DNA from: Mucilaginibacter agri
Lineage (GTDB): Bacteria; Bacteroidota; Bacteroidia; Sphingobacteriales; Sphingobacteriaceae
Assembly: GCF_009928685.1 (NCBI RefSeq)
Contig: NZ_WWEO01000045.1
Span: 744,001-808,000, forward strand
Reading direction: 5' to 3'
Length of the DNA: 64,000 nucleotides
Shown: positions 38,429 to 61,943 of the stretch, piece by piece
Numbering within the stretch: position 1 is the stretch's first letter
How the letters are laid out: the number at the start of each line of letters is the position of its first letter
Translations under genes and position numbers: made by a program
The notes under the pieces: model-generated
Databases searched by the model: none
What the model saw: the letters and a program-made list of their open reading frames with translations, nothing else
What the model was told of the DNA's origin: nothing

Positions 38429-38434
38429 AGGATC

Positions 38435-39517: not shown

Positions 39518-39523
39518 CCTACC

Positions 39524-41885: not shown

Positions 41886-41917
41886 AATAAAGGCTGGATC
41901 TCGAACCAGCCTTTATT
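41886..41917 (-). terminator. Minus-strand terminator between SusD2 and GH92
   Basis: 12-bp arms (AATAAAGGCTGG / CCAGCCTTTATT) with an 8-nt loop, 16 bp after the SusD2 stop. T-rich sequence follows on the minus strand. It would lower enzyme expression relative to the transporter. Confidence 0.75.
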
Positions 41918-41932
41918 ACGTTTACAGATAGA

Positions 41933-43429
41933 TTACCAACCTGTGTTTTGGGTGAGTTTTTTGTTGTTATTGATCTCCCGTTGTGGCACAGGCCATAATA
42001 AGTATTGCTGTTTCATGGTTACCCCCTGCTCATTGGCGGTACTGAAAGCATCGCTAAACTTATTATTGGTCACATCATAAATCATGTGAGTTCTTTGGAT
42101 ATCGAAATAAGCTTTGTTTTCATAAGCCAGTTCGTGATAACGCTCTTTCCAAATGGCCTGGCGGAACTGATCCTGACTTAAACCGCTAAGTGGTGCTAGC
42201 TGTGCACGTGTTCTGATCTTGTTAATCTGCGCGTAGGCATCAGCAGTTGGGCCGCTTACTTCGTTAGTAGCTTCTGCATAGATTAGCATGGCTTCCGGCA
42301 AGCGCAAGAAAGTCCAGTTTTCATCACAGATACCATTACCCAAGGCGCTTTCCACTTGAAAATATTTGTAGAGATTATGGCTGCCAAACACCACAGTTTT
42401 TGTTGGATCGCCATATTGCGGGTAGCTCGAGAAATAGAACTGACGCTCTTGTGCACGCAAATCTCCCGCTTCGTAACTATTGAAAAACTGATTGGTAGGA
42501 ACCATAGCGCCAAGGTGATCGCCGTAGGCACCTACAGGTAGGTTAAAAGGTACGGTTAACTGCGTGATAGCATTAGTAGATACACCTACAAGGTAATTAC
42601 TTTGAAATATTAACTCGCCCTGGTTTTTGTGGGCATTATCATGCAGATAAGCATAATCGGTAAACAATGTATAGCTCGACAATACTTTTTGCGCCTCTGC
42701 TGCAGCCAACGCATAGTTAGCTGTGATGTTTAAAGGGAAACCAGCGGTAGTAAGGTAAACACTGGCCAATAGTGTGCGAACGGCACCTAAAGAAGCATGC
42801 CCCGTTTGATCTGTTTCTGGTAAACCAGAAGCTTCAGCAGACACCAAATCACTGATAATAACCGGATAAACCTGCGCTACCGGAGTACGTGTAGGGAACA
42901 AATCAGGGCTATCTACAGTTACCGGGGCGGTAATCAAAGGCACATCACCATATAATCGCACTAAGTGGTAATAGAAAAACGCCCTTAAAAATTGTGCTTC
43001 GCCTAAAAGCCTTTTCTTCTGCGCGCCATCCATAGCAACATTCGGTATTTCTTGCAGGGCAAGGTTTGCGTTTGCGATAGCGCTGTAGCAATTTTGCCAA
43101 ACAGATTCGAAGCCCGGATTAACAGGGTCGGTACGCTGGTTAATTACGTTTCCGTTGTTTACACTTTGGCCGAGCGAGGTAGCATGACCGGCAAACAGTT
43201 CGATAGTAATAAATGGGCTTTCTCCATAAGCGTCGCCATTTTGGAACAAATAAAGTTTGTTATAAATGCCGTTAACAAAGGTTTGCGCCTGCGATGCCGA
43301 TGTAAAATAATTGCTTTTTACGAAGTTGCTGTTATTCTTCTCGTCCAGATATTTCTTACAACCACTGTTAATAAGCACCAGGCTTAATAACAGGTATGCA
43401 ATCTTATATTTTTTTATGTTAAGTTTCAT
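41933..43429 (-). CDS. SusD/RagB-like surface lipoprotein (PUL2)
   Basis: A 498-residue SusD homologue with lipoprotein C24 in INSGC, and the TPR-like helix region with AQFLRAFFYYHLVRLYGDVPL. The conserved RLPEAMLIYAEATNEV and IWKERYHELAYENKAYFDIQR follow. It ends QREINNNKKLTQNTGW, the usual SusD C-terminus. It binds the glycan with the SusC2 barrel at the outer membrane. SusC2 lies 21 bp upstream. In the PUL2 setting it is predicted to select alpha-mannan oligosaccharides. Confidence 0.94.
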   Translation of the reverse strand: MKLNIKKYKIAYLLLSLVLINSGCKKYLDEKNNSNFVKSNYFTSASQAQTFVNGIYNKLYLFQNGDAYGESPFITIELFAGHATSLGQSVNNGNVINQRTDPVNPGFESVWQNCYSAIANANLALQEIPNVAMDGAQKKRLLGEAQFLRAFFYYHLVRLYGDVPLITAPVTVDSPDLFPTRTPVAQVYPVIISDLVSAEASGLPETDQTGHASLGAVRTLLASVYLTTAGFPLNITANYALAAAEAQKVLSSYTLFTDYAYLHDNAHKNQGELIFQSNYLVGVSTNAITQLTVPFNLPVGAYGDHLGAMVPTNQFFNSYEAGDLRAQERQFYFSSYPQYGDPTKTVVFGSHNLYKYFQVESALGNGICDENWTFLRLPEAMLIYAEATNEVSGPTADAYAQINKIRTRAQLAPLSGLSQDQFRQAIWKERYHELAYENKAYFDIQRTHMIYDVTNNKFSDAFSTANEQGVTMKQQYLLWPVPQREINNNKKLTQNTGW

Positions 43430-43450
43430 GTCGGTATAATTAGTATTTGA

Positions 43451-46400
43451 TTAAAAACTTGCGTTTATGCCTAGCAGATAGGTTCTTGGTTTAGGGTAAT
43501 CGTAAAATTGGATACCCTGAGTGAAGTTACTATTGCCGTTATAGGTGGAAGTTTCCGGATCATAACCAGTGTAGTTGGTGATAATAAACGCGTTTTGAAC
43601 TTGTGCATAAATTCTCAGGCGGCTCATTTTCATTTTGGAAACTACGTTGCCTCCGAAGTTGTAACCAAGTGTTATCGCTCTACCGCGTAAGAAAGAACCG
43701 CTTTCTACTTTGGTTGAGTAAATCTCTGTTTGATATCTTACATATGCAGGTCTGTCTTCAGCAATACTGGTGTTTTGGTTAGTTGGTGTCCAGGCATTTA
43801 ACACGGTAGAATAGCTATTAGCCTGACCGGTTCTGTCCTGACCAGAGTGACGGGTTAAGTTCATAATCTGGTTACCCCAGTCAAATTGCAAATCAATACC
43901 AAGATCGAAGTTTTTGTATTTGAAGTTGTTGACAAAAGATCCGTAACCATCCGGAGTAGATTTACCTAAGATGGTTTTATCATCAGCGGTAATTTTACCA
44001 TCACCGTTTTTATCCCAGATCTTTAAATCACCAGGTAACAATCCGTATTTCGCGGCCTGAGCAGCTTCTGCAGTACCCCAGGTGCCTAACACTTTATAAC
44101 CTAAATACTCACCCGCCGGGTCGCCAGCGCGTACCAGCAAGAAGTTTGACAGGAACGATGGGCTCAGGAATATATCATCATTAGCATCGCCCAACTTTAG
44201 CACTTTGTTCTTCAAGAACGACACATTTAAGTTACTTGTCCAAGAGAAGTCTTTAGATTGAAAGTTAACTGAGTTGATAGTAAGCTCGACACCCTTGTTC
44301 TGTAAACTTCCAATGTTTTTGTAAACCGTGGTAAAGCCACTTGTCTCGGGCAGAGGGGCGTTAAGCAACAGGGCTTTGGTTTTCTTTAAGTAAACGTCGC
44401 CGTCGAAGGTTAAACGATTGTTAAACAAACCAAAAGACATACCAAGGTTGTACTCATTGGTTTTTTCCCAAGCCAGGCCTTCGTTACCAATACTGGTTTG
44501 TGTTGTACCAATAGCAGGTGCGCCGCCAAATACATAGTTGTTGGTATTGATGTTAGCTTGTGATCTGTACTCGCCAATCTCAGAGTTACCTGTTACACCG
44601 TAGCTGAACTTGAATTTCAGATCTGAAATAGTTTTATTGTCTTTCAGAAAATCTTCTTGTGAAGCACGCCATGCCACCGCTGCAGATGGGAAGAAACCAT
44701 ATTTGTTGTTAGTACCAAAACGTGATGAACCATCTTCGCGACCTGTAACGGTTAACAAATACTTATCTGCATAACCGTAAGTTGCCCTTGCAAAGAAAGA
44801 CTGCGTTTGCCATGCATCGTAATTTGAGGTAGGTATACCGGGTATAGAACCGGCCCCCAAATTGTAATAAGAGTAATAATTATCCGATAAATTTTGAGTA
44901 GAACCGTAAGAGCTCAACTGCGAGAAGTTGATAGTCTCAGTACCGGCAACCACGGTTACTGCATGTACCTTGTTAAAGGTTTTGCTGTAGGTTAAGTAGT
45001 TGTTCCAGTCCCAAAACGTATTGTTGTATTGGTTAATTGACGCCGAACTGTATGACTGGTTAATGGTAGAACCACCTACAAGCCCAGTTTGCGAATGCGG
45101 TTGGGTATTGCTTGAGTTGGTAACACCAATGGTTGTGCGGAAGTCGAGACCCGGCATAAAGGTGATATTAGCGTAAGCATTACCACTGAAAACGCGATTA
45201 TAAACCATATCCCTTATTTCATTGGCTTGCGCAACCGGGTTATCTCCACCCTCCATATTCGGATAGTCTGTTCGCTTGCCATAAGTACCATCAGGATATT
45301 TGATCGGGATAATAGATGGCATTTCGATTAACATACGCGGAATGTTGTTACCACCTGTACCGCCGCCCTGGTTACGGGTTTCACGATAATCGTAGTTTAA
45401 CGTAGCACCAACTTTTAGCCACGGCTTTATCTGGTTATCTGCTGTTAAACGACCGTTATAGCGTTTTTGATAGCTGTTGATGATGATACCTTCGTTATTG
45501 GCATAGTTTAAAAATAAACCATAATTCATTTTATCAGTTGCATCGGTAAAAGACAGGTTATGGTTCTGGCTGTACGCGTTGCGTGTAGTTGCTTTTTGCC
45601 AGTCTACGTCGTAAAGCGGATTCAAATTAGCATCGAATAATTTGCCGATCAACGCGGTACGAATAACCTTCGGATCATCTGCTGCATACTTTCCTGCGGC
45701 CCAGCCAACAGGGTCATACTTCTGAATATTGGCGTAAGACTGGTCTTCAACAGCCAGGAATTGTTTGGCATTTAAAACGCCCAATTCTTTAGCCATTACA
45801 CCTAAGCTTCCGTAGCCATCATAGGTAACCGAACCGCCCTTTTTATTTGCACCCCGTTTGGTAGTTATTAAAATTACCCCGTTAGTACCGCGCGATCCGT
45901 AGATAGCGGTTGAAGAAGCATCTTTCAATACGTCGATCGATGCCACATCATTAGGGTTAATTGAGGCTCCGCCTTCTGTCCATTGCACACCATCAACCAC
46001 ATACAATGGGTCGGTGTTAGCGTTAATGGAGCTGTAACCACGGATACGGATTTTGGTATCGGCCCCAGGAGCACCGGAGTTGCTAGATACGTTAACACCG
46101 GCAATTTTACCCGCAAGTTCTTGCTCTAAGTTTTGTGCAGGGCGCTCTTGCAGTTCTTTGCTGCTTACACTACCTACCGAACCGGTTACATCTACCCTTT
46201 TTTGGGTACCATAACCAATTACAACTACGTCACTAAGCGTTTTGCCCGCATCGGGTTTCATGCTTACATTAATAACTGTTTTACCGGCAATGGCAATTTC
46301 CTGTCTGGTGTATCCTAAAAATGAGAACGCGAGGTTTTTACCCGCGTCGGCATCCGATATGTTTAACGAAAACATACCCTTTGCATCAGTCACTGTACCG

Positions 46401-46621
46401 GTGGGTGTACCTACAATTGTTACACTAACACCTGGTAGTGGCTGGCCTTGTTCATCCAGCACCTTACCTGTTATGCGCGTCTGCGCGTAGGCAGCAAACA
46501 GGTTTAAATGCTTGCGCGGGGTTCCGTAACTCAGCGAAGGGCCGGTTAACGAAACGGCTGCCAACACCCCTATAGGCAGCCATTTAATTGTCTTTAATTG
46601 GTTTAGTAGCTTTACACTCAT
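43451..46621 (-). CDS. SusC-like TonB-dependent outer-membrane transporter (PUL2)
   Basis: A 1056-residue TonB-dependent importer with an unusually long N-terminal region (signal up to about residue 47, ending AYA). The carboxypeptidase-like beta domain begins TRITGKVLDEQGQPLPGVS. The plug has LSDVVVIGYGTQKRVDVTGS and DASSTAIYGSRGTNGVI, and the barrel ends YLLGINASF. No STN signalling domain is present. A 546-bp gap separates it from its regulator. It imports the oligosaccharides trimmed by the downstream mannosidases. Confidence 0.94.
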   Translation of the reverse strand: MSVKLLNQLKTIKWLPIGVLAAVSLTGPSLSYGTPRKHLNLFAAYAQTRITGKVLDEQGQPLPGVSVTIVGTPTGTVTDAKGMFSLNISDADAGKNLAFSFLGYTRQEIAIAGKTVINVSMKPDAGKTLSDVVVIGYGTQKRVDVTGSVGSVSSKELQERPAQNLEQELAGKIAGVNVSSNSGAPGADTKIRIRGYSSINANTDPLYVVDGVQWTEGGASINPNDVASIDVLKDASSTAIYGSRGTNGVILITTKRGANKKGGSVTYDGYGSLGVMAKELGVLNAKQFLAVEDQSYANIQKYDPVGWAAGKYAADDPKVIRTALIGKLFDANLNPLYDVDWQKATTRNAYSQNHNLSFTDATDKMNYGLFLNYANNEGIIINSYQKRYNGRLTADNQIKPWLKVGATLNYDYRETRNQGGGTGGNNIPRMLIEMPSIIPIKYPDGTYGKRTDYPNMEGGDNPVAQANEIRDMVYNRVFSGNAYANITFMPGLDFRTTIGVTNSSNTQPHSQTGLVGGSTINQSYSSASINQYNNTFWDWNNYLTYSKTFNKVHAVTVVAGTETINFSQLSSYGSTQNLSDNYYSYYNLGAGSIPGIPTSNYDAWQTQSFFARATYGYADKYLLTVTGREDGSSRFGTNNKYGFFPSAAVAWRASQEDFLKDNKTISDLKFKFSYGVTGNSEIGEYRSQANINTNNYVFGGAPAIGTTQTSIGNEGLAWEKTNEYNLGMSFGLFNNRLTFDGDVYLKKTKALLLNAPLPETSGFTTVYKNIGSLQNKGVELTINSVNFQSKDFSWTSNLNVSFLKNKVLKLGDANDDIFLSPSFLSNFLLVRAGDPAGEYLGYKVLGTWGTAEAAQAAKYGLLPGDLKIWDKNGDGKITADDKTILGKSTPDGYGSFVNNFKYKNFDLGIDLQFDWGNQIMNLTRHSGQDRTGQANSYSTVLNAWTPTNQNTSIAEDRPAYVRYQTEIYSTKVESGSFLRGRAITLGYNFGGNVVSKMKMSRLRIYAQVQNAFIITNYTGYDPETSTYNGNSNFTQGIQFYDYPKPRTYLLGINASF

Positions 46622-48903: not shown

Positions 48904-50349
48904 TTATAAAAGTGGCGACAGTAGTCTGCACAATTTCTCGGGTAGTTGTTTAATTACGCTTCGTTCTGCCCAGCGTTTTGCGTTAATTTGCTCGGCATTT
49001 TTCAGGTCGTTATGAAAGGCTTTTCCTAATTCAGCAGCTATCTTCTTATCGTAGATCATACTGTTAACTTCGAAATTGAGTTCAAAACTCCGGTGATCCA
49101 TATTGGCTGTACCCACCACAGCCAGTAAACCGTCGGCCACTAAGGTTTTGGCGTGTACAAAGCCCTTTTTATAGCGATAAACCTCTACCCCAGCCTCTAA
49201 CAACTCGTTATAATAAGAACAGGCGGCAGCATTCACCAGGTACGAATCAGACCTCCAGGGCACCAACAGTTTAACTTTAACACCGCTCATGGCCGATATA
49301 CACAAGGCATCCAGTATACTATCCCCCGGAATAAAATATGGCGATGTGATCAGCAATTCTTCCTTCGCCGCCCCAATGGCCTGCAACAGCGAGAACATAA
49401 TAGTAGGCACATCCGAATCAGGCCCGCTGGCCGCTATCTGCACAATGGCCTTCCCGTGCTTCTTGTCGCCTGCTGCAAAAAACTCTTCAGTAATGGGCAA
49501 TTTCTTACCTGTACAAAAGTTCCAGTCGCAAATAAAAAGGTTCTGAAGGTAATATACCCCTGGGCCGGTGATCATTACATGGGTATCGCGCCAGTATACC
49601 TTGTCGGTGTTCTTGTCGTTGACGTATCGGTCGCTAACGTTAATACCACCAACAAAACCAACGCAGCCATCTATAACCACAATTTTGCGGTGGTTTCGGT
49701 AGTTGGTACGGTTTGACATGGCTATAAACCAAATCTTATAAAAAGGCAAAGCCTCAACCCCGGCATCTGTCAGCTCCTTTACAAACTCCTTACGGATGGA
49801 GCGGCTACCAAAGTCGTCGTAGATGAACCGCACGTTTACACCCTCTCCTGCCTTCTGGATCAGAATATCTTTGATCTGGTTGCCGATATTGCCGTCTTCG
49901 AAAATATAATATTCAATGTGGATATGTTTTTTTGCTACTTTCAGTGCTTCCAGCAGTTCGGGAAACTTTTCTTCGCCATTGAGGAGCAACTTTACGTCGT
50001 TATTTCCGGTTAAAGGGCTTTGCTCGTTCAGTAGCATGTGGGCGAGGTTCTTATACTCTTTTATTTCTTCCTCGCTGGCCGTCCAGGTCTTTTTAGATTC
50101 GCTTGCAATTCTTCGCCTGATTTCGTCCATGAGCTTTTTATCGCTCACAATCTTCTTACTGTATAGCTTATTTTTACGGTAGTTGTTACCCACTGCAAAG
50201 TAGATGATCATACCCACGATGGGCAAAAAAATAGTAAGCAACAGGTAGGCAAGCGTTTTAGTGGTAGAGCGGATATCATAAAGTATGCGCAGGCACACAA
50301 CAATGGTTATTATGGCATAGATAGTACCCTCTATAATGTACCATTTCAT
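48904..50349 (-). CDS. Cardiolipin synthase (phospholipase D family)
   Basis: A 481-residue membrane enzyme with two N-terminal helices (about 5-55) and two HKD motifs, H220-K222-D227 (HRKIVVIDG) and H399-K401-D406 (HAKTLVADG), each followed by a GG/GTANMD-type stretch. It makes cardiolipin from phosphatidylglycerol or related donors by transphosphatidylation. Length and layout match ClsA-type enzymes. Its start overlaps the upstream gene's stop by 4 bp, so the two are coupled. Confidence 0.95.
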   Translation of the reverse strand: MKWYIIEGTIYAIITIVVCLRILYDIRSTTKTLAYLLLTIFLPIVGMIIYFAVGNNYRKNKLYSKKIVSDKKLMDEIRRRIASESKKTWTASEEEIKEYKNLAHMLLNEQSPLTGNNDVKLLLNGEEKFPELLEALKVAKKHIHIEYYIFEDGNIGNQIKDILIQKAGEGVNVRFIYDDFGSRSIRKEFVKELTDAGVEALPFYKIWFIAMSNRTNYRNHRKIVVIDGCVGFVGGINVSDRYVNDKNTDKVYWRDTHVMITGPGVYYLQNLFICDWNFCTGKKLPITEEFFAAGDKKHGKAIVQIAASGPDSDVPTIMFSLLQAIGAAKEELLITSPYFIPGDSILDALCISAMSGVKVKLLVPWRSDSYLVNAAACSYYNELLEAGVEVYRYKKGFVHAKTLVADGLLAVVGTANMDHRSFELNFEVNSMIYDKKIAAELGKAFHNDLKNAEQINAKRWAERSVIKQLPEKLCRLLSPLL

Positions 50350-51290
50350 TTACCGCAAATCCTTTCTAAATATTGCCAGATGGTATGCTTATTCCATCCT
50401 ATTAATCTGCCTTTCTGAATAATCATGTTTTCATCGCCGGTAGAGCCTACCGGATAACTTAATGCAAATGCTGTATTATTGTTTTGCCAGCCCTGTATTT
50501 GTCCAAAACGCATAATGTTAAAATAAACTTTATCGCCCGTTTTGCTTATTGTATAATAATTATCAGCAAATTCTCTCAGCACCGGTTCGGGGTTTTTCAG
50601 TAATGAATCATTTCTGGAATGATACCTGTAATCAACAGCCTGCTTATCAAAAACTGATTGGTAACCGGCGTAATAACCATCGTCGGTTTTAATAATGCAA
50701 TACCATAATAACGAGGTGAACGGCGCTGGGGTAGAAAGCGTGGCCTTGGTTCTCTCGTCTACATAAAGTTTAGCCATACAGGCAATCAGTAAATAAAATG
50801 CAGAAATAGAGATAGCGATTGCAGCCCAACGCCCGCGATAAGCCTTACCGAAAAGCAGGTAGACAGAGGCCACCAGCATACTAATAGTAAATAATGGATC
50901 GGCCACGTACAATAACTCGACAGAGAAACGGCTGTGACTGAAAGGCTCTAGCAAGCCAGTTCCGTAGTTGGTGCAGGTATCTAATAAATCATGCAGTAAA
51001 AGCTGGAAACAGAAAAATAAAAGCAAAGTATTCAGCTTGACTTTGGGATAAAACCGGTGTGCAATAAAACCCAGCAATAACCCTAACACTATAGCAAAAA
51101 AGAAAGAATGTGTGATACCACGATGAATAAGCAATGCGCGGTCGCCTTGTACAAATAAACCGGCTGCTGTATCCATATCGGGCAAATTTGCGGCGATAGC
51201 GCCAAAAAGCATTGCCTTTTTACCTAGTTTTTTACCCAATAACAATTCGCCTGTGCACGCGCCCAGTGTGATATGCGTAAGTGAATCCAT
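50346..51290 (-). CDS. YdjM/LexA-binding-type inner-membrane metal-dependent hydrolase family protein
   Basis: A 314-residue protein with the family N-terminus MDSLTHITLGACTGELLLG, whose His and Asp residues (with LPDMDTA at about 37-43 and HRGITHSF at about 57-64) form a metal-site-like set. Four or five membrane helices follow, with HDLLDTCTNYG in one loop, and a C-terminal extracytoplasmic domain. It is annotated as metal-dependent hydrolase but the substrate is unknown. It is coupled to cardiolipin synthase, suggesting a membrane-lipid context. Confidence 0.85.
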   Translation of the reverse strand: MDSLTHITLGACTGELLLGKKLGKKAMLFGAIAANLPDMDTAAGLFVQGDRALLIHRGITHSFFFAIVLGLLLGFIAHRFYPKVKLNTLLLFFCFQLLLHDLLDTCTNYGTGLLEPFSHSRFSVELLYVADPLFTISMLVASVYLLFGKAYRGRWAAIAISISAFYLLIACMAKLYVDERTKATLSTPAPFTSLLWYCIIKTDDGYYAGYQSVFDKQAVDYRYHSRNDSLLKNPEPVLREFADNYYTISKTGDKVYFNIMRFGQIQGWQNNNTAFALSYPVGSTGDENMIIQKGRLIGWNKHTIWQYLERICGK

Positions 51291-51517
51291 TAATAACTTT
51301 AGATTTAAAACAGATGCCCCCGCCAGCTTCTCTATTGCACCGCATCAGACAGCCAATATATCTATTTTGGCGATAATGCAGCTTATTTTTATAAACGAAT
51401 AACTTATTCAGCTTACAATCTGTAACGATAATGATAGGTACCATCCCCTTGATTATAACAAATACTTAACTTTCATTTTATATTGAGACAAGTTATTTGC
51501 AAAACATTTACTGCGAT

Positions 51518-52768
51518 ATGAACAAATTTTTCCTGATACTGCTTTGCGCCGCCTTATGTGGTAACTCTTACGCACAAAAAGTGAAGCCCAACCCCTATTT
51601 GCTTAAAACAACCGGCGACTGGGTAAAAACAAAAAATTATTATCTACTTAGCTTATTCGAGCAAGACAAAGAAGTTAACGCCCTGCTTAAAAGCGACACG
51701 GCTTTAGCCCGGCTTACTTTAACTAAGATTCAAGGCTTAAATAATGCCATTAAAGATTGTAAAGACGCAACCTGTTTCACCGGTCAAATTAAGTTTTCTG
51801 ATGATGAGATCAAAACCGTAAGCGCACGCTTAACGGCGCTATATAAATCTAACGGACCATTAGATCGTTTAACTAAAACAGTATTAATACCATCGGCTAC
51901 CTATTCATTATACAAGAACCTTTCTCCGGCTGAACAATTAGTAAAAGCATGGGAACAAGATGCAGCTGCCGTTAATTATACCATAAGTGTTTATGCAGAA
52001 GGTAAGAAACCTAATTACCCACAGATAGATTCCATCAGCTATAATGTGAAAGCCAAAAGCTACACTACTATTATGTACGATTGCGCAGTTGTGCTTGCCG
52101 GCGATGTAAAGAACACCAAACTTTTCTTCGAACCATCATTACAAGCAGCCTTGCTTTATTTGCAAATAAACGAACGGCAAGACCCTGCCAATTATGAGCC
52201 TATGGCCAGTACCGTTAACAAGGCTGCTGTTGATAAGATCAAAACTATTAAATGGGCAAGCTATCCATACTCTAATATATTAGTGCCAGGCGCCGGTCCG
52301 GATAACCTTACCACTCCCTTAAGCGGCGAAGGCATGCTGCGCTGCCGGCTGGCCGCCCAGCAATATAATTCAGGTATTGCACCCTTAATTATGGTATCGG
52401 GCGGTAACGTGCATCCGTACAAAAACAAACATAATGAGGCACTGGAAATGAAGAAGTACCTGATCCAAACGCTTCGTATACCAGAGAGCGCCATTATTAT
52501 GGAACCGCATGCACGCCACACCACTACCAACATGCGCAACTGCGCGCGGCTAATCTACCGTTATGGAATCCCTGCTGATAAACCGGGCATTGTGATAACC
52601 GATAAAGCACAAACAGATTTTTTAATGAACATGGCTCCGCGCTGCGAAAAGGAATTGAATTATGTACCCTACAAACTAAGCAAACGCCTTTCGGATACGG
52701 AGGTTGAGTACTACCCGGTTGAAGAAGCGATGCAGATAGACCCCGATGAGCCACTTGACCCACGTTAA
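51518..52768 (+). CDS. Exported YdcF/DUF218 family protein
   Basis: A 416-residue protein from the ATG at 51518 (MNKFFLILLCAALCGNSYA, a clean signal peptide). A TTG at 51497 is the upstream alternative and would add seven residues. The N-terminal half (about 20-220) is helical and unassigned. The C-terminal half (about 245-385) is a DUF218 Rossmann-like domain with NILVPGAGPDN, MLRCRLAAQQYNSG and EPHARHTTTNMRNC, similar to ElyC/SanA/YdcF proteins linked to envelope integrity. It precedes a secreted protein gene by 24 bp. The biochemical role is unclear. Confidence 0.85.
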   Translation: MNKFFLILLCAALCGNSYAQKVKPNPYLLKTTGDWVKTKNYYLLSLFEQDKEVNALLKSDTALARLTLTKIQGLNNAIKDCKDATCFTGQIKFSDDEIKTVSARLTALYKSNGPLDRLTKTVLIPSATYSLYKNLSPAEQLVKAWEQDAAAVNYTISVYAEGKKPNYPQIDSISYNVKAKSYTTIMYDCAVVLAGDVKNTKLFFEPSLQAALLYLQINERQDPANYEPMASTVNKAAVDKIKTIKWASYPYSNILVPGAGPDNLTTPLSGEGMLRCRLAAQQYNSGIAPLIMVSGGNVHPYKNKHNEALEMKKYLIQTLRIPESAIIMEPHARHTTTNMRNCARLIYRYGIPADKPGIVITDKAQTDFLMNMAPRCEKELNYVPYKLSKRLSDTEVEYYPVEEAMQIDPDEPLDPR

Positions 52769-52792: not shown

Positions 52793-53668
52793 ATGAAAAA
52801 TTTAACCGCAACGGCATTGGTTGCAATAAGCACGTTGTGCGCGTTTGTTAGCGGATCAGTTGATCAAAAGCTCGACCGCGCTATTACCATCGATTCGCTA
52901 GGTGCCTGCCAGGGTATTTCTTATCAAAACGGCCGCATTTTTTTATATGGCGACCGCGAAGTGGGTATGATCCGTGAGTTTAAGATGGAAAACGATAGCC
53001 TGGTTTATCAGCATAAAGAATATAAACTAACCCAAAACGGACAGGATGTAATTAACCACCCTACCGGCATTGCCTACAATGGTAAAGGGCCAACGTTTAT
53101 CGGTAATTCGATACGCCTTAATGCAGAGGGTACCAAATGGAAAGCGGTTATTTACAATATTAATTGGGAAGGCCTCCAAAAAAACGGGACTTTGGATGGT
53201 AACCTGATTAACACCATAGATGATGATGCCTGCATACAAGGTACCCGCCCTGAATATGTTAAATACAACAATAAATGGTACGTTGCCACCGCAGATTATG
53301 GCGACCACGGCAACGAGGTACGACTATACGATCCGGAAAAACTGGCGAAAGCGAAAAACACCAGTGAACCTGGTGTGCTTTACAAAAAATTTACCTGCAC
53401 ACCCTGGGTACAAAACCTGCACTGGATAGCCGATAAGGGACAGCTAGTGTTGATACAAAATAAGATAGAAGGCCGCCAATGGCGATTTACTTATGTAGAC
53501 CTGAAGAAATCGATTGAAACTGGCAAGCAGGTTGTAGTTAGTCAAATAGATGGTATAGACCGTGGCGATGAGCTGGAAGGCTTTTCATTTATAGGCAACA
53601 ACACAAAGGGAATTGCGGTAACATCGTCGCGCAAAAACAATGTAAATTTTACTACTACAGCCTGGTAA
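52793..53668 (+). CDS. Secreted propeller-like hypothetical protein
   Basis: A 291-residue protein with a signal peptide (about 1-22). The mature sequence has beta-rich blades with ACQGISYQNGRIFLYGDREVG, TGIAYNGKGPTFIGNS, ATADYGDHGNEVRLYDPE and ELEGFSFIGNNTKGIAV. This pattern fits a small beta-propeller such as the esterase-like phytase or lactonase groups, but I see no diagnostic catalytic motif. It lies 24 bp after the YdcF-like gene and ends at a terminator, so the two form a short operon. Confidence 0.7.
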   Translation: MKNLTATALVAISTLCAFVSGSVDQKLDRAITIDSLGACQGISYQNGRIFLYGDREVGMIREFKMENDSLVYQHKEYKLTQNGQDVINHPTGIAYNGKGPTFIGNSIRLNAEGTKWKAVIYNINWEGLQKNGTLDGNLINTIDDDACIQGTRPEYVKYNNKWYVATADYGDHGNEVRLYDPEKLAKAKNTSEPGVLYKKFTCTPWVQNLHWIADKGQLVLIQNKIEGRQWRFTYVDLKKSIETGKQVVVSQIDGIDRGDELEGFSFIGNNTKGIAVTSSRKNNVNFTTTAW

Positions 53669-54042: not shown

Positions 54043-57000
54043 ATGAATAAAAAGATTACTCATGATCTTTTAGCTAAGTTTTATATTCAACCGTTCTTAT
54101 TCTTACTGATCATGGTGTTGTCGTTAGTTACTAACGCTGCAACACATAACACTATTGCACAGGCTGCCACCCAGATAACAGGCTTGGTTACCGACGAACG
54201 CAACCAACCGCTACCCGGCGTAACCGTTCGTATTAAAGGAACATCTAAGGGTACAACTACCGATGTTAATGGTAAATACACCATCGCAGCCGAAGAAGGT
54301 TCTGTTTTAACATACACCTTTATTGGTTACCTGCAACAAGAGGTAACGGTTAACGGCAGCAAACCAATCAACTTAAAATTAGTGCCTCAAGCCAATATGC
54401 TTAACGAGGTGGTAGCTATTGGTTACCAAACCATTCGCAAAAGCGATGTTACAGGTGCTATTTCCAGCGTTAAGGCAAGCGAGCTTAACCTTTCTGCCCC
54501 AACATTGGGTCAGGCATTGGTTGGTAAAATTGCGGGCGTACAGGTATCACAAACTGATGGTGCACCTTACCAGGGGACTAAGATCAGGGTGCGTGGTGTG
54601 GGCTCATTCAACGCAAGTTCAGATCCACTTTATGTAATTGATGGTTACCCTGCTGGTAACGATGTTTACATCAACCCTAACGATATCGAAACCATCGACG
54701 TGTTAAAAGATGCGGCTTCTGCAGCTATCTATGGTTCACGCGCGTCTGGGGGTGTGGTAATTATTACCACTAAAAAAGGTAAAGAAGGTAAAGGGAAATT
54801 CGAATACGATCTGCAAACCGGTGTTAACCAGTTGGCTAAAAAAGTAAATCTGTTAAATTCAGATCAGGCTGCACAATTGGTTATTGATGGTCGTAACAAT
54901 ACTTATAAAGATCTTTGGGTAAATACAGGCCACACCTGGAACGATAACATGTACTCTGATAACAACGCAACCCGTATTGCCAATGTTGGTAACGCCGGTA
55001 GCGTGAGCATCCCAGATGGTTTGTACAACTACACCACACAATCATTAATTCACCAAACCGTAAACACCGACTGGCAGGATGAATTGTACCACAACGCGTT
55101 CTTCCAAAAGCATAACCTGTCTTTCTCAGGTGCGTCAAAAGATATCCGTTACTTCGTGAGCGGTGCTTACCAAAATCAGGACGGTATTATCCATACTACC
55201 GGTCAGGAGCGTTACAATTTCCGCACCACTGTTGATGGTAATGTAAGCAAGAGATTACACGTAGGTGCAAACATCTCTTACACTCAAAACTATAACAAAG
55301 AGGTGCAGGAAGGCCGTTTTGACCACGGTCCGATTTTAGGTGCATTAATTTACATGCCTTATTTACCGGCATATAATGCAGATGGTACTTTAGCTACCAA
55401 TGCCGAAGCTGCACAATCAACCGCTTATGGTTACCAGTCTATCGAAAACCCGGTAGCCCTGGCCGAGCGTACTAAAATTACCCGCAAAGGATACCGCAGC
55501 CTTTATAATGGTAATGTTTCTTACAACATTTTACCAGGCTTTGATGCCAAAGTAAACTTAGGTACACAAACCTATAACGAAAAGTATGATTACTACCTGC
55601 CGACAACTATAAGCAGCGGTGCATTTCCTCCGGGATCTACCCAATCTATCGCGGCAGCAACGGCTGCGGCACAAACAACTTCATTAGTTGACCGTCTGGG
55701 CGAGTTTACCTTAAACTACAACAAACAATTCGGCAAACACCATTTTGATGCCTTGGCGGGTTACTCTGCACAAAAAACCAGCAGCGATATCATCAGTGTT
55801 TATGCTCGTGGTTTCCAGAATGATAACATTCCCGAAATTACCGGAAAAGGTGCAGATCCAAGCAACTTTACATTGGTTACTACTGCAAACCCGCAGGCAG
55901 GTTTAGGTTTGGTACCAACCGCCAAATCTACTTACACTCTGCTTTCTTACCTTGGTCGTGTTAATTACAACTATAACAGTAAATATTTCTTAACCGCTTC
56001 GTTCCGTGCCGATGGTTCATCACGTTTCGGACCGGATAACAAATACGGTTATTTCCCATCGGTAGCTGCAGGCTGGACACTATCTGACGAGTCTTTCTAC
56101 CACAATTTCCTGGGCGACCAGTCGACCGTTAAATTACGTGCAAGCTGGGGCTTAACAGGTAACTATAACATTGGTAACTACAATACCCAGCAAACTTTGG
56201 GTAGCCCTACCGGTGTTGTGTTTGGTAACAGCAGCGCTATTGCTACAGCTACTTACCCGGGTGGTATCAAAGATTCTAAGTTAAGCTGGGAGTCTACCTC
56301 ACAGTATAACTTCGGTGCCGATATCGGTTTGTTTAAAGGCCGTTTATCATTAATGGCTAACTACTATTTAAGCTACTCGTACAACCTGTTGTACAACCAG
56401 CCAATTTCGGCAATATCCGGCTCTACAACAATCTTAACCAACCTTAAAGATTCTAAGATCCGTAACAGCGGTTTTGATTTCCAACTGGACGGACGTATCA
56501 TTAACGAAAAAGATTTCACCTTTAACGCCAGCGGTAATATCTCTATCAACCGCAACAAAGTGGTTAAACTACCAAGCAACAACACCATTATCATTAACGG
56601 TGCCGAGCGTTCTTACTTAACCAACATTACCACACAAGGCCAGCCGGTGGGTATGTTCTATGGCTTTAAAGTAGCCGGTATGGTTACTCCGGATAACATT
56701 ACCAAAGTTGCGCAATCTACAGCATCTACCAACCCTGTTAAACCGGGCGACCTGTACTTTGTAGATACCAATGGTGATGGCAAGGTTACCGATGCTGATA
56801 AAACCATTATCGGTTCGCCTTATGCAAACTTCACTTACGGTTTTGGCTTAAACTCAGCTTACAAGCATTTCGATATCGCTGCAGCATTTAATGGCTCGCA
56901 GGGTAACAAGGTATTGGATGGTCAGGATTATTACCTGTACAACATGGAGGGTTCTGGTAACCAGTATGCTGATGTTGCCAACCGATACCGCAACGCATCT

Positions 57001-57360
57001 GAGCCGGGTGATGGTACTGTTTACCGTGCATCTCGCGGTGGTACCCAAAGTAACAGTACCCGTTTATCAACCTTCTATTTACAGGATGGTTCGTTCTTAC
57101 GTTGTACTAACATTACCCTGGGTTATACCATCCCGGTATCTCTACGCGATAAGTTAAAGATCAGCAACTTCCGTATTTATGCGAGCGTGGTAAATGCATT
57201 TACAATTACTAAATACAAAGGCTATAACCCAGAGGTAGATTACAACTACTCTAGCGGTGGCTCAAACAGTACACAACCAGCCAACCTTGCACCAGGTATC
57301 GATTATGGTGTTTACCCGCTGGTGCGTTCGTACAACCTGGGCATTAACCTAACATTTTAA
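54043..57360 (+). CDS. SusC-like TonB-dependent outer-membrane transporter (PUL3)
   Basis: A 1105-residue TonB-dependent importer. The long signal region ends near AQA (residue 41). The carboxypeptidase-like beta domain begins TQITGLVTDERNQPLPGVT. The plug has LNEVVAIGYQTIRKSDVTGA and DAASAAIYGSRASGGVVI, and the barrel ends SYNLGINLTF. There is no STN domain. SusD3 follows 21 bp later. Codon use is strongly biased to GTT/GGT/ACC-type codons, suggesting high expression. The nearby GDPD and GH92 suggest a phosphate-bearing mannose substrate. Confidence 0.95.
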   Translation: MNKKITHDLLAKFYIQPFLFLLIMVLSLVTNAATHNTIAQAATQITGLVTDERNQPLPGVTVRIKGTSKGTTTDVNGKYTIAAEEGSVLTYTFIGYLQQEVTVNGSKPINLKLVPQANMLNEVVAIGYQTIRKSDVTGAISSVKASELNLSAPTLGQALVGKIAGVQVSQTDGAPYQGTKIRVRGVGSFNASSDPLYVIDGYPAGNDVYINPNDIETIDVLKDAASAAIYGSRASGGVVIITTKKGKEGKGKFEYDLQTGVNQLAKKVNLLNSDQAAQLVIDGRNNTYKDLWVNTGHTWNDNMYSDNNATRIANVGNAGSVSIPDGLYNYTTQSLIHQTVNTDWQDELYHNAFFQKHNLSFSGASKDIRYFVSGAYQNQDGIIHTTGQERYNFRTTVDGNVSKRLHVGANISYTQNYNKEVQEGRFDHGPILGALIYMPYLPAYNADGTLATNAEAAQSTAYGYQSIENPVALAERTKITRKGYRSLYNGNVSYNILPGFDAKVNLGTQTYNEKYDYYLPTTISSGAFPPGSTQSIAAATAAAQTTSLVDRLGEFTLNYNKQFGKHHFDALAGYSAQKTSSDIISVYARGFQNDNIPEITGKGADPSNFTLVTTANPQAGLGLVPTAKSTYTLLSYLGRVNYNYNSKYFLTASFRADGSSRFGPDNKYGYFPSVAAGWTLSDESFYHNFLGDQSTVKLRASWGLTGNYNIGNYNTQQTLGSPTGVVFGNSSAIATATYPGGIKDSKLSWESTSQYNFGADIGLFKGRLSLMANYYLSYSYNLLYNQPISAISGSTTILTNLKDSKIRNSGFDFQLDGRIINEKDFTFNASGNISINRNKVVKLPSNNTIIINGAERSYLTNITTQGQPVGMFYGFKVAGMVTPDNITKVAQSTASTNPVKPGDLYFVDTNGDGKVTDADKTIIGSPYANFTYGFGLNSAYKHFDIAAAFNGSQGNKVLDGQDYYLYNMEGSGNQYADVANRYRNASEPGDGTVYRASRGGTQSNSTRLSTFYLQDGSFLRCTNITLGYTIPVSLRDKLKISNFRIYASVVNAFTITKYKGYNPEVDYNYSSGGSNSTQPANLAPGIDYGVYPLVRSYNLGINLTF

Positions 57361-57381: not shown

Positions 57382-58917
57382 ATGAAGAAGAAATATATAG
57401 CTATGGCGTGCTTTGCAGCACTTGTAGTAGTGAGCTCGTCATGTAAGAAAGAGTTTTTAGAACAAAGCGACCCTAACGCAATATCTGTTGATAATAGTTT
57501 TAAATCACCTAACGATGTATTGCTGGCCGTAAATGGTATTTACCAATCGCTGCGTAGTGGTAACAATATCGGCGAAACCAGCGACTTGTGGACCGATCAG
57601 CGTTCGGACGATACCGGTACTAATGATAACCAATCTAACGCCGGCGAACCGTTCCAGTTCAACAACTTTTCGTTACTGGCAAGCAATACTTATTTAAAGG
57701 CACACTGGGTATCACTTTACGGTACCATTACCCGCGCTAATACGGTATTGAGCAACATAGATAAAGTAACTTTTACCGACCCTACCGTTAAGGCACAGTA
57801 TGTGGGTGAAGCCAAATTTTTACGTGCGCTTATTTATTTTCACCTGGTGCGTTTATGGGGCGATGTGCCTTTGGTTACCAAGCAATTGGCTTCTACAGAG
57901 GTATCAGCAGCTACATTCCGCGAAAAGCAAGCTACTGTTTACGCTCAGATCGTAGCCGACTTAACAGATGTGGTTAACAACAGCAACCTGCCTAACCTGC
58001 AAACAGGCGCTGGCATTGGCCGTGCTTCTAAAGCAGCTGCAAATGCACTTTTAGGTCAGGTTTATTTAACTATGGCAACCACGCAAGATCAGGCGAACAG
58101 GGCAGCTAATTTGGCTAGCGCTAAAACCTTCCTGATGGCTGCCTACAACATGCGCACGTTTGGTGCTTTAAGCAGCATCCCTTATACTGATGTGTTTGAT
58201 GTAACTAAAAAATCAACTTGCCCTGAACTGATCTTCCAGATCGTAAACAAGCAGGGTGATATTAACTACAGCTCATCAATAGCTGCAAACAACCAGGCCA
58301 AAGGCGAAACCATTAACTCGTTAAAAGCATCATCTGGTGTAGGCGGTAACGTTAAGCACGATTTAGTAAATGATTATGAAGCTAACGATCCTCGTGGTGC
58401 TTTCTCTATTAAATATGCCAACGACCCAATTGTGAAAGATTGGTTTATCACTAAGTTCCGCGATGCAAGTTCAGGCGCTTCTAACCTGGGTTACGGTGGT
58501 AACGATTGGATTTTGATGCGTTATGCTGATGTGATCCTGATGCTTGCCGAAGTAAATATGTACCTGGGCGATAACGCCACTGCAATCTCTTTCCTGGATC
58601 AGGTTCGTACCCGTGCAGGTATGCCAACTTACGCAGCGTCGATAACAAACGCAGCTTACGTTGCCAAATATCCAACCTTAAAACTGGCTATTTTACACGA
58701 GCGCCGTGTTGAATTAGCATTTGAGCACCACCGTTGGTTTGACTTATTAAGGTTCTTTACCACAGACGAGTTAGTTGCTTATTTCAAGGCTAAACCTCAG
58801 GCCGATTACGGTACGGCACTGGTAGCAAACTTTACCACTAAAGACCGCTACTACCCTATTCCGTTCGACGAATACAAACTCGATCCGGTAAAAATGTACC
58901 AGAACCCGGGTTATTAA
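57382..58917 (+). CDS. SusD/RagB-like surface lipoprotein (PUL3)
   Basis: A 511-residue SusD homologue with lipoprotein C21 in SSSC and AKFLRALIYFHLVRLWGDVPL in the TPR-like region. Later comes ILMRYADVILMLAEVNMYLG, followed by LAILHERRVELAFEHHRWFDLL and the ending DPVKMYQNPGY. All match the family. It binds glycan on the cell surface with SusC3. It ends 12 bp before a compact terminator that separates transporter from enzyme genes. Confidence 0.94.
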   Translation: MKKKYIAMACFAALVVVSSSCKKEFLEQSDPNAISVDNSFKSPNDVLLAVNGIYQSLRSGNNIGETSDLWTDQRSDDTGTNDNQSNAGEPFQFNNFSLLASNTYLKAHWVSLYGTITRANTVLSNIDKVTFTDPTVKAQYVGEAKFLRALIYFHLVRLWGDVPLVTKQLASTEVSAATFREKQATVYAQIVADLTDVVNNSNLPNLQTGAGIGRASKAAANALLGQVYLTMATTQDQANRAANLASAKTFLMAAYNMRTFGALSSIPYTDVFDVTKKSTCPELIFQIVNKQGDINYSSSIAANNQAKGETINSLKASSGVGGNVKHDLVNDYEANDPRGAFSIKYANDPIVKDWFITKFRDASSGASNLGYGGNDWILMRYADVILMLAEVNMYLGDNATAISFLDQVRTRAGMPTYAASITNAAYVAKYPTLKLAILHERRVELAFEHHRWFDLLRFFTTDELVAYFKAKPQADYGTALVANFTTKDRYYPIPFDEYKLDPVKMYQNPGY

Positions 58918-58970: not shown

Positions 58971-59837
58971 ATGAAATCTGCTATCAAACTATTCTTCTTG
59001 CCTGCAATCGCGCTCCTTTCTATTACCGCTTCGGCACAAAACAAAGTACAGGTAACCGCACACCGCGGCGATTGGCGCAATGCTCCCGAAAACTCCCTGC
59101 TCGCCTTTAAATATGCTGCAGCTATAGGAGTTGATATTGTTGAACTCGACCTTAAAAAAACCAAAGACGGCGCCATTGTAATTATGCACGACGGTACCAT
59201 AAACCGCACCACCGACGGAAAGGGCAAACCCTCTGATTACACTTTTGACGAGATCCGTAAGTTTGGCCTCAGGAATGGCATTGGCCGGGTGACTAACAAC
59301 CGTATCCCCACTTTAAAAGAAGTAATGCTTGCGCTTAAAGGCACCAACGTAAAGGTTAACCTCGATAAAAGCTACGACTACTATAACGAAGCTTATGACA
59401 TTTTGCAGGAAACCGGAACACTGAAACAAGCCATTTTTAAATCGGAAATGCCTTACGATAGTGTGAAGAACAAATACCCGCAGTTGATAAATAAGATCAT
59501 CTATATGCCGGTGGTGAGTCTGGATAAACCGGATGCCAGAAAGGTAATTACCGACTACCTGAAAAACATGAAACCGTACGCATTTGAACTCATCTTCACC
59601 AAAGACACGTCGGCGATTTTGAGCGATAATAAATTTATTACCCAAACGGGCTCGAAGGTTTGGATCAATTCTTTATGGGCGTCGCTAAACGGCGGCCACG
59701 ATGACGACATGGCTGTAGAGGATAATAACAAAAAAGACAGCTGGGACTGGATTCTGGCCCATGGTGCAACCATTATCCAAACCGATAGGCCAAAAGAACT
59801 ATTGGAATATCTGAAGAAGAAACAACTTCACAATTAA
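58971..59837 (+). CDS. Glycerophosphodiester phosphodiesterase (secreted)
   Basis: A 288-residue exported TIM-barrel enzyme with a signal peptide ending at about residue 22 (ITASAQ). The catalytic-site residues are H31-R32 in TAHRGDWRNAPENS, E58 and D60 in DIVELDLKK, and the second catalytic His H73 in IMHDGTINRTTDGKG. It is metal-dependent and hydrolyses glycerophosphodiesters to glycerol-3-phosphate and an alcohol. It sits 12 bp... to be exact, its start is 53 bp after the SusD3 stop, and GH92 follows 39 bp later. That makes it a PUL component that probably removes phosphodiester substituents from the imported glycan. Confidence 0.93.
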   Translation: MKSAIKLFFLPAIALLSITASAQNKVQVTAHRGDWRNAPENSLLAFKYAAAIGVDIVELDLKKTKDGAIVIMHDGTINRTTDGKGKPSDYTFDEIRKFGLRNGIGRVTNNRIPTLKEVMLALKGTNVKVNLDKSYDYYNEAYDILQETGTLKQAIFKSEMPYDSVKNKYPQLINKIIYMPVVSLDKPDARKVITDYLKNMKPYAFELIFTKDTSAILSDNKFITQTGSKVWINSLWASLNGGHDDDMAVEDNNKKDSWDWILAHGATIIQTDRPKELLEYLKKKQLHN

Positions 59838-59876
59838 TATCTATCTACCTATTTAGCTTTCTATATTTTCGCATCC

Positions 59877-61943
59877 ATGAGATCTTTTCTTTCCGCGGCC
59901 TTAATTTTTATCGCTCTTTCTTTATCTGCCCAAACTAAAAAAACGCAGCCTCCTCAACCGGCCGACCTGGTTAACGTATTCGTGGGTTCATCCGGCGATC
60001 ATGGGCAGATGTCGCCTGCGGCGTCATATCCCTTCAGCATGCTGAGCATTGGCCCGCAAACCTACCCTAACCTACACATGGGTTATGAGCATAAGGCCAA
60101 ACAGTTTCTGGGCTTTACGCACAACCGTTTTGAAGGCGTAGGCTGCCAGGGAAGCGGTGGTAATATTATGATCACCCCATTTTTGGGCGATACTGCTTCA
60201 ATACTAACCAAAGCTACCGAAAGCGCTGGCGCAGGTTATTATAATGCATCCTTTACCAACCGTATAGCGGCCAAAATTGCGGTGTACCAAAACGAGGGTA
60301 TAGAAAGCTATTACTTTCCGCAAGGTAAGAAGGGGTTTAAGATAGATTTGAGCCACACGCTTGCCAACAGATTTGTAGCCGAAGAACACGAACTGCAAGC
60401 AGACGGTTTAACCGGCTGGGTGGATTCTAAAACCACGTGTAATGTGGGCACATACCGTGTTTATTATGCTATAAAATTTGATCAGCCGGTAAAGTTTAAT
60501 GCGCTAAAAGAACACCAGTTATTAGCTTATCTTGCTGCTAACAGTGAACGTATTCAATTGCATATCGCATTTTCGTCTGTTGATGTGGCGCATGCAAAAG
60601 CCGCCTTAACAACGGGCAGTTTCGATCAGCTGAAATCCCAAAGCGCAACAGGTTGGAACCAGGTTTTAAGCCGAATAGAGGTTAAAGGCAACCCGGAGCG
60701 AGCAAAACTATTTTATTCGATGCTTTATCGTACGGTGCAATCACCTTATGTGGTTTCAGAGCGCGATGGCAGTTTCCGTGCAACAGATGGCACTTTACAA
60801 CATACTACAGACAGCATTTACAACGGCTGGGCGATATGGGATAATTATCGTACCCAATTACCGCTATTGTCTATCGCATATCCCGACAAATACAAGTCGA
60901 TAGCCACGTCAATAGCCAATCTCTACCAATACGGCAAAAAGGATTACGCCACCCAGCATGAACCCTCAAATACCGTTCGCACCGAGCATGGTATCGTAGT
61001 ATTACTTGATGCTTACCGTAAGGGTTACCCGGTTGATTTTAATAAGATTTGCGATTCGTTAATTTCCGAAGTTAACAGGCTCGATTTTTCGCACCCCGAT
61101 AAGGCTTTAGAATCGAGTTATGATGCCTGGGCATTATCACAAATATTGGCAGCAACTGGTAAAAAAGAGTTAGCCGATCAGTACAAACAAAAAGCTTCGG
61201 AATACAAAACCTACTGGAACAAGGATTTTAAAGACCTTACCAAACCCGATGTTGACAGGATACCTGCCCGCGGCCTTTACCAGGGAACCGTTTGGCAATA
61301 CCGCTGGTTTGTACCTTTTGATGTAAAGGGTTTAATTGAACTTACCGGCGGCGAAAAAGCCTATACCAGTCAACTCGACCGATTTTTTGAGAACGATTAT
61401 TACAACCACGCCAACGAGCCAGATATACAGGTTCCGCTGATGTATAATGCTTCATCGCAACCCTGGAAATCGCAGGCTATGGTGCATAAATACGCTGTGG
61501 ATACCGTAGTACAATACTATTTTAATGATAACAGCCGCGGGATAGACCCATTTGTTGGCGTGATTTATCAAAACAAACCCGACACTTACGTCCGTACTAT
61601 GGATGATGACGCAGGTGCCATGTCGGCATGGTTTATATTTGCTGCAAGTGGTATTTCGCCTGCTTGTGTGGGCTGGCCCATTTACTATTTAAATGTGCCG
61701 CTATTTAACGAGGTAAGCTTTAAATGGCCGGGTGGCAAACATTTTGATATACAAGTACCTAATTATAAAGAAGGCCGCAAATACATTAAATCCGTGCAGT
61801 TAAACGGCAAAACACTCAACCGTAACTGGCTAACCCATCAGGAGATTATGCAGGGCGGCACGCTCGTAATCACCGCCTCAGATGAACCTGTTAAAGATTT
61901 CGGCATTGCCAATCAGTGGGTATCAGATGTAGATATGAAATAG
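59877..61943 (+). CDS. Divergent GH92 family mannosidase with Gln at the general-acid position (PUL3)
   Basis: A 688-residue exported GH92 protein with a signal peptide ending LSLSAQ (about 19). The N-terminal beta domain is PADLVNVFVGSSGDHG. The helical domain segment LYQGTVWQYRWFVPFDVKGL aligns with the PUL2 enzyme's FIEGNSWHYTWS, but Q469 replaces the general-acid Glu. The NEPD motif and the base-bearing MDDDAGAMSAWF are kept. From memory, GH92 enzymes that cleave mannose-1-phosphodiesters have this same Glu-to-Gln change because phosphate is a good leaving group. With the adjacent phosphodiesterase, a phosphomannan role is the leading inference. A non-catalytic homologue is the alternative. 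Confidence 0.9.
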   Translation: MRSFLSAALIFIALSLSAQTKKTQPPQPADLVNVFVGSSGDHGQMSPAASYPFSMLSIGPQTYPNLHMGYEHKAKQFLGFTHNRFEGVGCQGSGGNIMITPFLGDTASILTKATESAGAGYYNASFTNRIAAKIAVYQNEGIESYYFPQGKKGFKIDLSHTLANRFVAEEHELQADGLTGWVDSKTTCNVGTYRVYYAIKFDQPVKFNALKEHQLLAYLAANSERIQLHIAFSSVDVAHAKAALTTGSFDQLKSQSATGWNQVLSRIEVKGNPERAKLFYSMLYRTVQSPYVVSERDGSFRATDGTLQHTTDSIYNGWAIWDNYRTQLPLLSIAYPDKYKSIATSIANLYQYGKKDYATQHEPSNTVRTEHGIVVLLDAYRKGYPVDFNKICDSLISEVNRLDFSHPDKALESSYDAWALSQILAATGKKELADQYKQKASEYKTYWNKDFKDLTKPDVDRIPARGLYQGTVWQYRWFVPFDVKGLIELTGGEKAYTSQLDRFFENDYYNHANEPDIQVPLMYNASSQPWKSQAMVHKYAVDTVVQYYFNDNSRGIDPFVGVIYQNKPDTYVRTMDDDAGAMSAWFIFAASGISPACVGWPIYYLNVPLFNEVSFKWPGGKHFDIQVPNYKEGRKYIKSVQLNGKTLNRNWLTHQEIMQGGTLVITASDEPVKDFGIANQWVSDVDMK

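Follow-up and report, generated by a model that had tools for sequence, protein, structure and literature searches.

A GH92 protein with glutamine on its general-acid column, a predicted mannosyl-phosphodiester hydrolase, accompanies a DUF218/SusCD cassette in Mucilaginibacter agri

The window analyzed here is a 64,000-nucleotide stretch of the Mucilaginibacter agri genome (contig NZ_WWEO01000045.1, positions 744,001 to 808,000), and our subject is a gene cluster near its end that encodes a glycoside hydrolase family 92 (GH92) protein, a glycerophosphodiester phosphodiesterase (GDPD), a SusC/SusD transporter pair (SusCD) and a DUF218 protein. The GH92 protein has glutamine where the general acid of the family stands. 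It groups with CcMan5, the GH92 enzyme of Cellulosimicrobium cellulans, and away from GH92 proteins with a glutamate acid (E-type), and its sequence makes it likely to be a mannosyl-phosphodiester hydrolase. Residue identities, subgroup membership, fold, gene linkage and the optionality of GDPD and GH92 are supported directly by the comparisons below. An earlier sequence-only reading of the window had noticed the glutamine and taken the SusCD, GDPD and GH92 genes for a phosphomannan system; its residue-level claim is right, and is now better supported than sequence alone allowed. The gene and the codon in question are as follows.

59877..61943, plus strand: GH92 protein of the CcMan5-like subgroup, 688 residues, Gln469 in place of the general acid, signal-like N-terminus, accessory gene (PF07971, PF17678, alignments, tree, model and fold match)
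61281..61283, plus strand: codon CAG for Gln469, on the general-acid column (residue read from the open reading frame (ORF); alignment columns)

By homology the protein is a GH92, scoring 108.3 bits with PF17678 (cut-off 34.5), 297.5 bits with PF07971 (24.6) and 276.8 with TIGR01180 (249.55). It lacks the Glu that acts as general acid in ordinary members, which leaves its membership untouched, as CcMan5 has Gln there too. In a MAFFT alignment with characterized enzymes, Gln469 falls on the general-acid column, which holds Gln in CcMan5 (2xsg/4aq0) and Glu in BT3130 and in the GH92 of PUL2, another polysaccharide utilisation locus (PUL) of the window. The sequence-only reading had set Gln469 opposite E536 of the PUL2 enzyme, and the aligned column confirms it; that residue is Glu548 of the listed ORF (39524-41842, minus strand) and 536 when counted from an internal methionine at MKKLF. 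In HMMER alignments to solved structures, the window segment GLYQGTVWQYRWF lies opposite GLYQGTLWQYHWY of CcMan5, and YQGTVWQYRWFV lies opposite TEGNAWQYFWYV of BT3130, both without internal gaps, and Gln469 matches the CcMan5 Gln inside GLYQGT.WQY.W. The general base is kept as D578, the third Asp of MDDDAG (575-580).

The glutamine is a fixed character of a clade. It occupies column 469 in 89 of 89 close-clade rows of a MAFFT alignment (the window and 88 loci, 83 of them distinct), and on this ground a sequencing error or private change was rejected. Across a wider alignment of 152 rows, comprising 93 core, 6 distant and 53 E-type rows (85 distinct sequences among the core rows and 52 among the E rows), the acid column reads Q in 98 and E in 54, and the D578 column is Asp in every row. 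Eight GH92 genes were found in the window genome, and the other seven are all of the E type.

Five further residues mark the subgroup. R368, E370, Y468, D516 and M575 are present in 93/93 core rows and 6/6 distant rows, CcMan5 included, and in 0/53 E-type rows. Position 476 holds Arg throughout the 93 core rows; the 6 distant ones have Arg as well, except for His in the two actinobacterial rows. The earlier description of the DDDAG and NEPD motifs as intact therefore holds for the first and needs a nuance for the second, because the Asp of NEPD is D516, itself a subgroup marker, and Ser, Val, Ile or Cys stands there in all 53 E-type rows. An 85-row tree built with the acid column excluded separates 53 E rows from a group of 32 (31 Q, one E) with an SH-aLRT (approximate likelihood-ratio test) value of 99, and the E/Q state requires two changes on it. 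This was a quick build, unrooted and without bootstrap; its E-type rows were chosen by similarity to the window protein or to PF07971 and do not sample GH92 at random. The window's side of the tree also holds CcMan5, its Streptomyces relative, two Novosphingobium proteins (L151 and L152) and one from Persicobacter (L153); because the inner branches are long and the tree unrooted, how close the window protein stands to CcMan5 there is uncertain. The Streptomyces protein is encoded on a plasmid (L149:6893-13780) in a gene of about 2,295 codons and is 72% identical to CcMan5 over the C-terminal 234 residues. The single E row is from a plasmid of Catenovulum adriaticum (L150:9887-12013), and it carries all five marker residues, keeps the acid Glu (GLYEGT) and reads DAA for DAG. 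In a sample of 395 genomes from the phylum, a match of at least 56% identity occurs in 5, the window's included, and the next best is about 30% (best candidates were scored per genome, 2 here and 7 in the genus search below).

The predicted fold leads to the same relative. An AlphaFold2 model of the GH92 protein made from 46 sequences (mean predicted local distance difference test, pLDDT, 86.0; predicted template-modelling score, pTM, 0.89; low-confidence loops at 39-43, 87-90, 551-554 and 573-576) matches CcMan5 (2xsg) best in both Foldseek and VIA-align 2, with Z 44.6 and a root-mean-square deviation (rmsd) of 2.3 over 653 residues; the next-best entry in VIA-align 2 has Z 40.1.

The glutamine column, the clade, the shared residues, the fold and the activity of CcMan5 make cleavage of a mannosyl phosphodiester the likeliest reaction. 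The window protein would be an exported exo-enzyme, Ca-dependent and inverting if it follows its family, that removes terminal alpha-mannose from Man-alpha-1-P-R, with R itself conjectural, to yield mannose and a phosphomonoester. Gln469 would take the place of the acid, with D578 still acting as the base. No general acid should be required because phosphate is a good leaving group, and the missing acid reportedly accounts for the specificity of CcMan5. An inverting phosphorylase is expected to retain the acid and lose the base, the reverse of the pattern seen here. CcMan5 acts on Man-PO4-Man and, in the articles consulted, is the one characterized GH92 that stands for mannosyl-phosphodiester cleavage (PMC5930347; here and below, articles are cited for their available excerpts). 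Ordinary GH92 enzymes work by inversion with a Glu acid and an Asp base (PMC5930347, PMC12858847, PMC10167667). The E598Q mutant of AnGH92A is inactive, on 4-nitrophenyl mannoside (4NP-Man) as well (PMC12858847), and changing Glu533 of BT3990 to Gln leaves the enzyme strongly impaired with some activity left (PMC10167667); the title of PDB entry 7fe2 describes an Enterococcus GH92 with an E494Q mutation, E494 presumably being the acid. Since such mutants are dead or strongly impaired, a role as an ordinary alpha-mannosidase is unlikely, and these losses, the CcMan5 precedent and the reversed phosphorylase pattern together point to an activated leaving group, phosphate first. R368 and R476 would probably hold the phosphate. 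T366 aligns by MAFFT with a BT3130 Cys that we take to be Cys399, which borders the catalytic acid of that enzyme (PMC5930347), and R368, two residues further on, is for this reason a candidate phosphate ligand.

Gene neighbourhoods also connect the Q-type GH92 genes with phosphodiester chemistry. The genes that precede the GH92 gene in the window are as follows.

51497..52768, plus strand: DUF218 (YdcF-like) protein with a helical N-terminal half and a signal-like N-terminus, core gene (PF02698, E 1.9e-13)
52793..53668, plus strand: ORF52793, 291 residues, signal-like N-terminus, core gene, 24 bases past the DUF218 gene (locus conservation)
54043..57360, plus strand: SusC-type TonB-dependent outer-membrane transporter, core gene (TIGR04056, E 1.6e-253; PF13715, PF07715)
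57382..58917, plus strand: SusD-type protein, core gene (PF07980, E 1.7e-37; PF14322)
58971..59837, plus strand: GDPD-superfamily phosphodiesterase with C-terminal DUF4996 and a signal-like N-terminus, accessory gene (PF03009, PF16387; 3i10)

The cluster is a PUL in the usual sense, with a SusC and SusD pair beside a carbohydrate-active enzyme. As the sequence-only reading had it, a secreted-type GDPD with both catalytic histidines lies directly upstream of the GH92 gene. H31-R32, E40-N41, E58, D60 and H73 are all there, aligned with the same letters of 3i10, its nearest solved relative (E 1.6e-74 over nearly the whole length), so that the catalytic HR, the E.D pair and the second His that define the family are in place; other superfamily relatives among the PDB matches carry differently named activities. 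The hydrophobic, signal-like N-termini of the GDPD and GH92 proteins were read off the sequence. Residues 254-402 of the DUF218 protein, in a model with pLDDT 86.3, match YdcF (3ca8; Z 11.0, rmsd 3.4 over 125), and residues 1-253 lie outside the match. A search of PDB sequences with the whole protein gave no match at E up to 1, and Foldseek none under E 0.001. ORF52793 has no Pfam match at E 0.001 and no NCBIfam match at E 0.01, and its matches to PDB sequences at E up to 1 are short and implausible. Divergent from the DUF218 gene, positions 48904-51290 hold a PLD-family gene and a gene for a YdjM membrane protein.

Linkage was measured in 13 genomes with a Q gene, which are not phylogenetically independent (9 belong to one genus), against 108 E genes, defined as PF07971 places minus the 13 Q genes and short N-terminal pieces, without individual reading of the acid residue. 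A GDPD gene lies within 10 kb of 8/13 Q genes and 0/108 E genes, and a DUF218 gene within 10 kb of 10/13 and 0/108. A broader view came from 80 Q-GH92 loci of named genomes, the best 80 of 249 confirmed, some on stretches that end at contig ends; six identical pairs are shared with loci from the genome searches, and distinct counts were used where relevant. Among relatives that carry a genus name the nearest are Mucilaginibacter, and six Q proteins from genomes of the window's genus match those of named Mucilaginibacter records exactly over 550 residues. GDPD occurs in 18 of these loci, DUF218 in 21, ORF52793 in 13 (DUF218 being present in 13/13 of those), Exo_endo_phos in 6 and PI-PLC in 2, and at least one of the four phosphoesterase types in 26/80, a count without a control and with search seeds drawn from these same loci. 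Other phosphoesterase folds near Q-GH92 genes include PI-PLC-C1 in Persicobacter and Exo_endo_phos in L054, L071 and L089. Exo_endo_phos was rejected as a frequent partner, being found in 6/80 loci and within 12 kb of 2/13 Q genes. In a genome matching Mucilaginibacter galii (L160:4702-6562), the DUF218 cassette is immediately preceded by genes for two proteins related to the Exo_endo_phos protein of L071, and in L071 itself (Desertivirga) a similar pair precedes the Q-GH92 gene. A PIG-L protein, of the N-acetylglucosaminyl-phosphatidylinositol (GlcNAc-PI) de-N-acetylase type, is encoded near the Q-GH92 gene in 20/80 loci, all Pedobacter (for example L104:3010-5475), and genes for an SSF transporter and a DUF2911 protein often separate the two.

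The DUF218 linkage, absent from the earlier reading, extends to a second phylum. The Q gene is immediately preceded by a DUF218 gene in Novosphingobium (L151), in Persicobacter (L153), where a PI-PLC-C1 gene follows, and in L156 and L158, which come from two additional genomes of the class; in Novosphingobium L152 that place is taken by an ORF of equal size.

Within the window's genus the parts of the cluster separate into a core and its additions. Among 149 genomes, the Q gene is present in 29, a full-length DUF218 relative in 76 (82 matched, minus six with partial or weak matches only) and both in 26 (Fisher p 2e-6, uncorrected for kinship), and DUF218 lies within 12 kb of the Q gene in 22 of the 29. 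We then sampled 20 of the 50 genus genomes with DUF218 and no Q gene, one locus each in stretches of about 18 kb. SusCD at 60% identity or more was found in 17 of these loci, ORF52793 in 16 and GDPD in 4, and a GH92 match in 0/20. One further genome (G002) keeps DUF218, ORF52793, SusCD and GDPD together as a complete set, 1.7 Mb from its Q gene. The sample and this genome identify DUF218, ORF52793, SusC and SusD as a stable unit to which GDPD and GH92 are added. GDPD and GH92 alone were rejected as the defining unit, because conservation reaches upstream of the coordinates in the earlier reading; they look like optional add-ons that are nevertheless linked to each other. What the added enzymes have in common is phosphodiester chemistry, which for the GH92 is a prediction. 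Both would serve as accessories to a core uptake cassette for a phosphodiester-bearing compound, the GDPD opening other phosphodiesters alongside the GH92.

This arrangement bears on the proposal that all the genes together form a locus for using fungal (yeast-type) phosphomannan, in which SusCD imports the glycan, GH92 uncaps Man-1-P-6-Man and GDPD deals with glycerophosphoryl groups. The residue part of that interpretation stands, with a CcMan5-like Gln that is fixed in the clade on the acid column and GDPD linked to Q and not to E genes. CcMan5 supplies the precedent on Man-P-Man and is used for uncapping yeast-made glycans (PMC9246025). A mannan context is also close at hand, as the PUL2 group (31964-46621, minus strand), with a GH92 and a GH76, ends about 5 kb before the cassette, and a second GH92 (acid residue unread) occurs in 6/80 Q-GH92 loci, with GH76 in Rufibacter L062. 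The claim for the whole set is not supported in the form given. The SusCD pair belongs to the DUF218/ORF52793 core, and the sampled loci without a Q gene are GH92-free in 20/20; 17 of them pair a close SusCD with DUF218, which speaks against dedication of SusCD to alpha-mannan, although other mannan enzymes were unsearched there. Because the stable unit occurs without GH92, the SusCD cargo need not be mannan. Moreover, the cassette has no recognized endo-mannanase, and 74/80 loci are without a second GH92 in the stretch examined. A phosphomannan PUL is therefore possible but doubtful, weakened by the separation of core from accessories. PUL2 itself resembles a PUL for alpha-mannan that includes an oxidoreductase arm: besides the GH92 (Glu acid) and GH76 it encodes a Gfo/Idh protein, a GMC oxidoreductase, a gluconate 2-dehydrogenase subunit 3-like protein and a glutaminase A-like protein, with two further ORFs that have the size of SusD and SusC.

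A wider reading, which we offer tentatively, is that DUF218, ORF52793 and SusCD form an unrecognized Bacteroidota system for uptake of phosphodiester compounds, served by varied decapping enzymes, with DUF218 itself an enzyme. The caps would be glycerol, removed by GDPD, and mannose, removed by the acid-less GH92, with Exo_endo_phos or PI-PLC acting elsewhere, and DUF218 would act on the exposed phospho-sugar or phospho-inositol. If this were true, the function-less DUF218 family would gain its first substrate class.

Several observations weigh against a mannosyl-phosphodiester hydrolase attached to such a cassette. Identity to CcMan5 is just 27% over the structural alignment, the inner branches of the subgroup are deep, and one member, that of Catenovulum, retains the Glu acid, with no phosphoesterase annotated in the stretch examined. 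The failure of AnGH92A E598Q on 4NP-Man implies that removing the acid is not by itself enough to produce an enzyme for good leaving groups. The linkage control draws 9 of its 13 genomes from a single genus; at 15 kb DUF218 is near 3/108 E genes, one being the window's own PUL2 GH92; in 54/80 loci the stretch examined contains no phosphoesterase of the four types; and the core cassette is often present without any GH92.

The same subgroup residues allow other readings of the active site. Neutral alpha-mannosides might still be cut, with E370 or D516 as a relocated acid, as both are invariant in the subgroup and found in no E-type row, and E370 lies four residues past T366, aligned with the presumed acid-bordering Cys399 of BT3130 (PMC5930347). 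We regard this as unlikely. In the Catenovulum protein both residues coexist with the Glu acid, which means that neither they nor the markers as a set can be explained simply as making up for its loss; CcMan5 has equivalents of both and acts on a phosphodiester. It is improbable, too, that the subgroup binds a non-phosphate anionic partner in the +1 site, such as a uronate (mannosyl-glucuronic acid in glucuronomannan or in plant glycolipid heads), with the Q/E choice tuning leaving-group demand. The basic side chains at 368 and 476 could accommodate anions of any kind, and the Catenovulum gene has GH28, inositol oxygenase and TonB receptor genes as neighbours and PL7 further off, but a uronide is a poor leaving group that would need the acid that other members examined lack, and the GDPD linkage of Q genes also weighs against this reading. 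That the protein is a catalytically dead or carbohydrate-binding relic, as loss of the acid and the inactive or weak E-to-Q mutants of ordinary GH92s could suggest, is very improbable given 133 invariant columns among 46 sequences (the window's plus 45 that share 55-79% identity with it) and the base Asp in every row.

Mannosyl-phosphodiester hydrolysis thus remains our preferred assignment for the Q-type proteins. With 85 distinct core sequences and a natural Glu member beside them, the rule that Gln for Glu means phosphodiester can be tested on natural sequences. New uncapping enzymes would be useful for making mannose-6-phosphate glycoproteins (PMC9246025), and the partnership with DUF218 offers a way into the study of a domain whose function is unknown. 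Neither a Gln-type GH92 in Bacteroidota nor a DUF218-GH92 link is described in the titles and abstract openings among the literature matches listed, with subscription papers lying outside that search.

Compared with known systems, the window GH92 shares with CcMan5/CcGH92 (2xsg, 4aq0) the GH92 fold, Gln at the acid column and the motifs YQGT.WQY, VR.E, ANE.D.Q.P and MD.DAG. It differs in sequence, at 27% identity, and in setting: the Streptomyces relative of CcMan5 is of multi-domain size (about 2,295 residues), and the 16 kb examined around it carry no annotated SusCD, GDPD or DUF218. With the Bacteroides thetaiotaomicron enzymes BT3130, BT2199, BT3990 and BT3965 it shares the fold and the base Asp, but their general acid is Glu, and BT3130 lacks R368, E370, Y468, D516 and M575. 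Among these four, the residue-level alignments covered BT3130 and part of BT2199. The 3i10 protein, which the GDPD matches over nearly its whole length, is titled 'putative', and we know of no substrate for it. Like E. coli SanA, ElyC and YdcF (PMC12176290), the cluster's DUF218 protein has the DUF218 domain, with a YdcF-like fold at residues 254-402; it differs from them by a further, helical half and a signal-like N-terminus, and by the SusCD pair that adjoins its gene. The phosphate-inducible SusCD-like 'PUS' clusters of Flavobacterium (PMC8115612) resemble it in placing a SusCD-type transporter beside phosphodiesterases, but those clusters have phosphatases as well as phosphodiesterases, and the available part of that article mentions no GH92.

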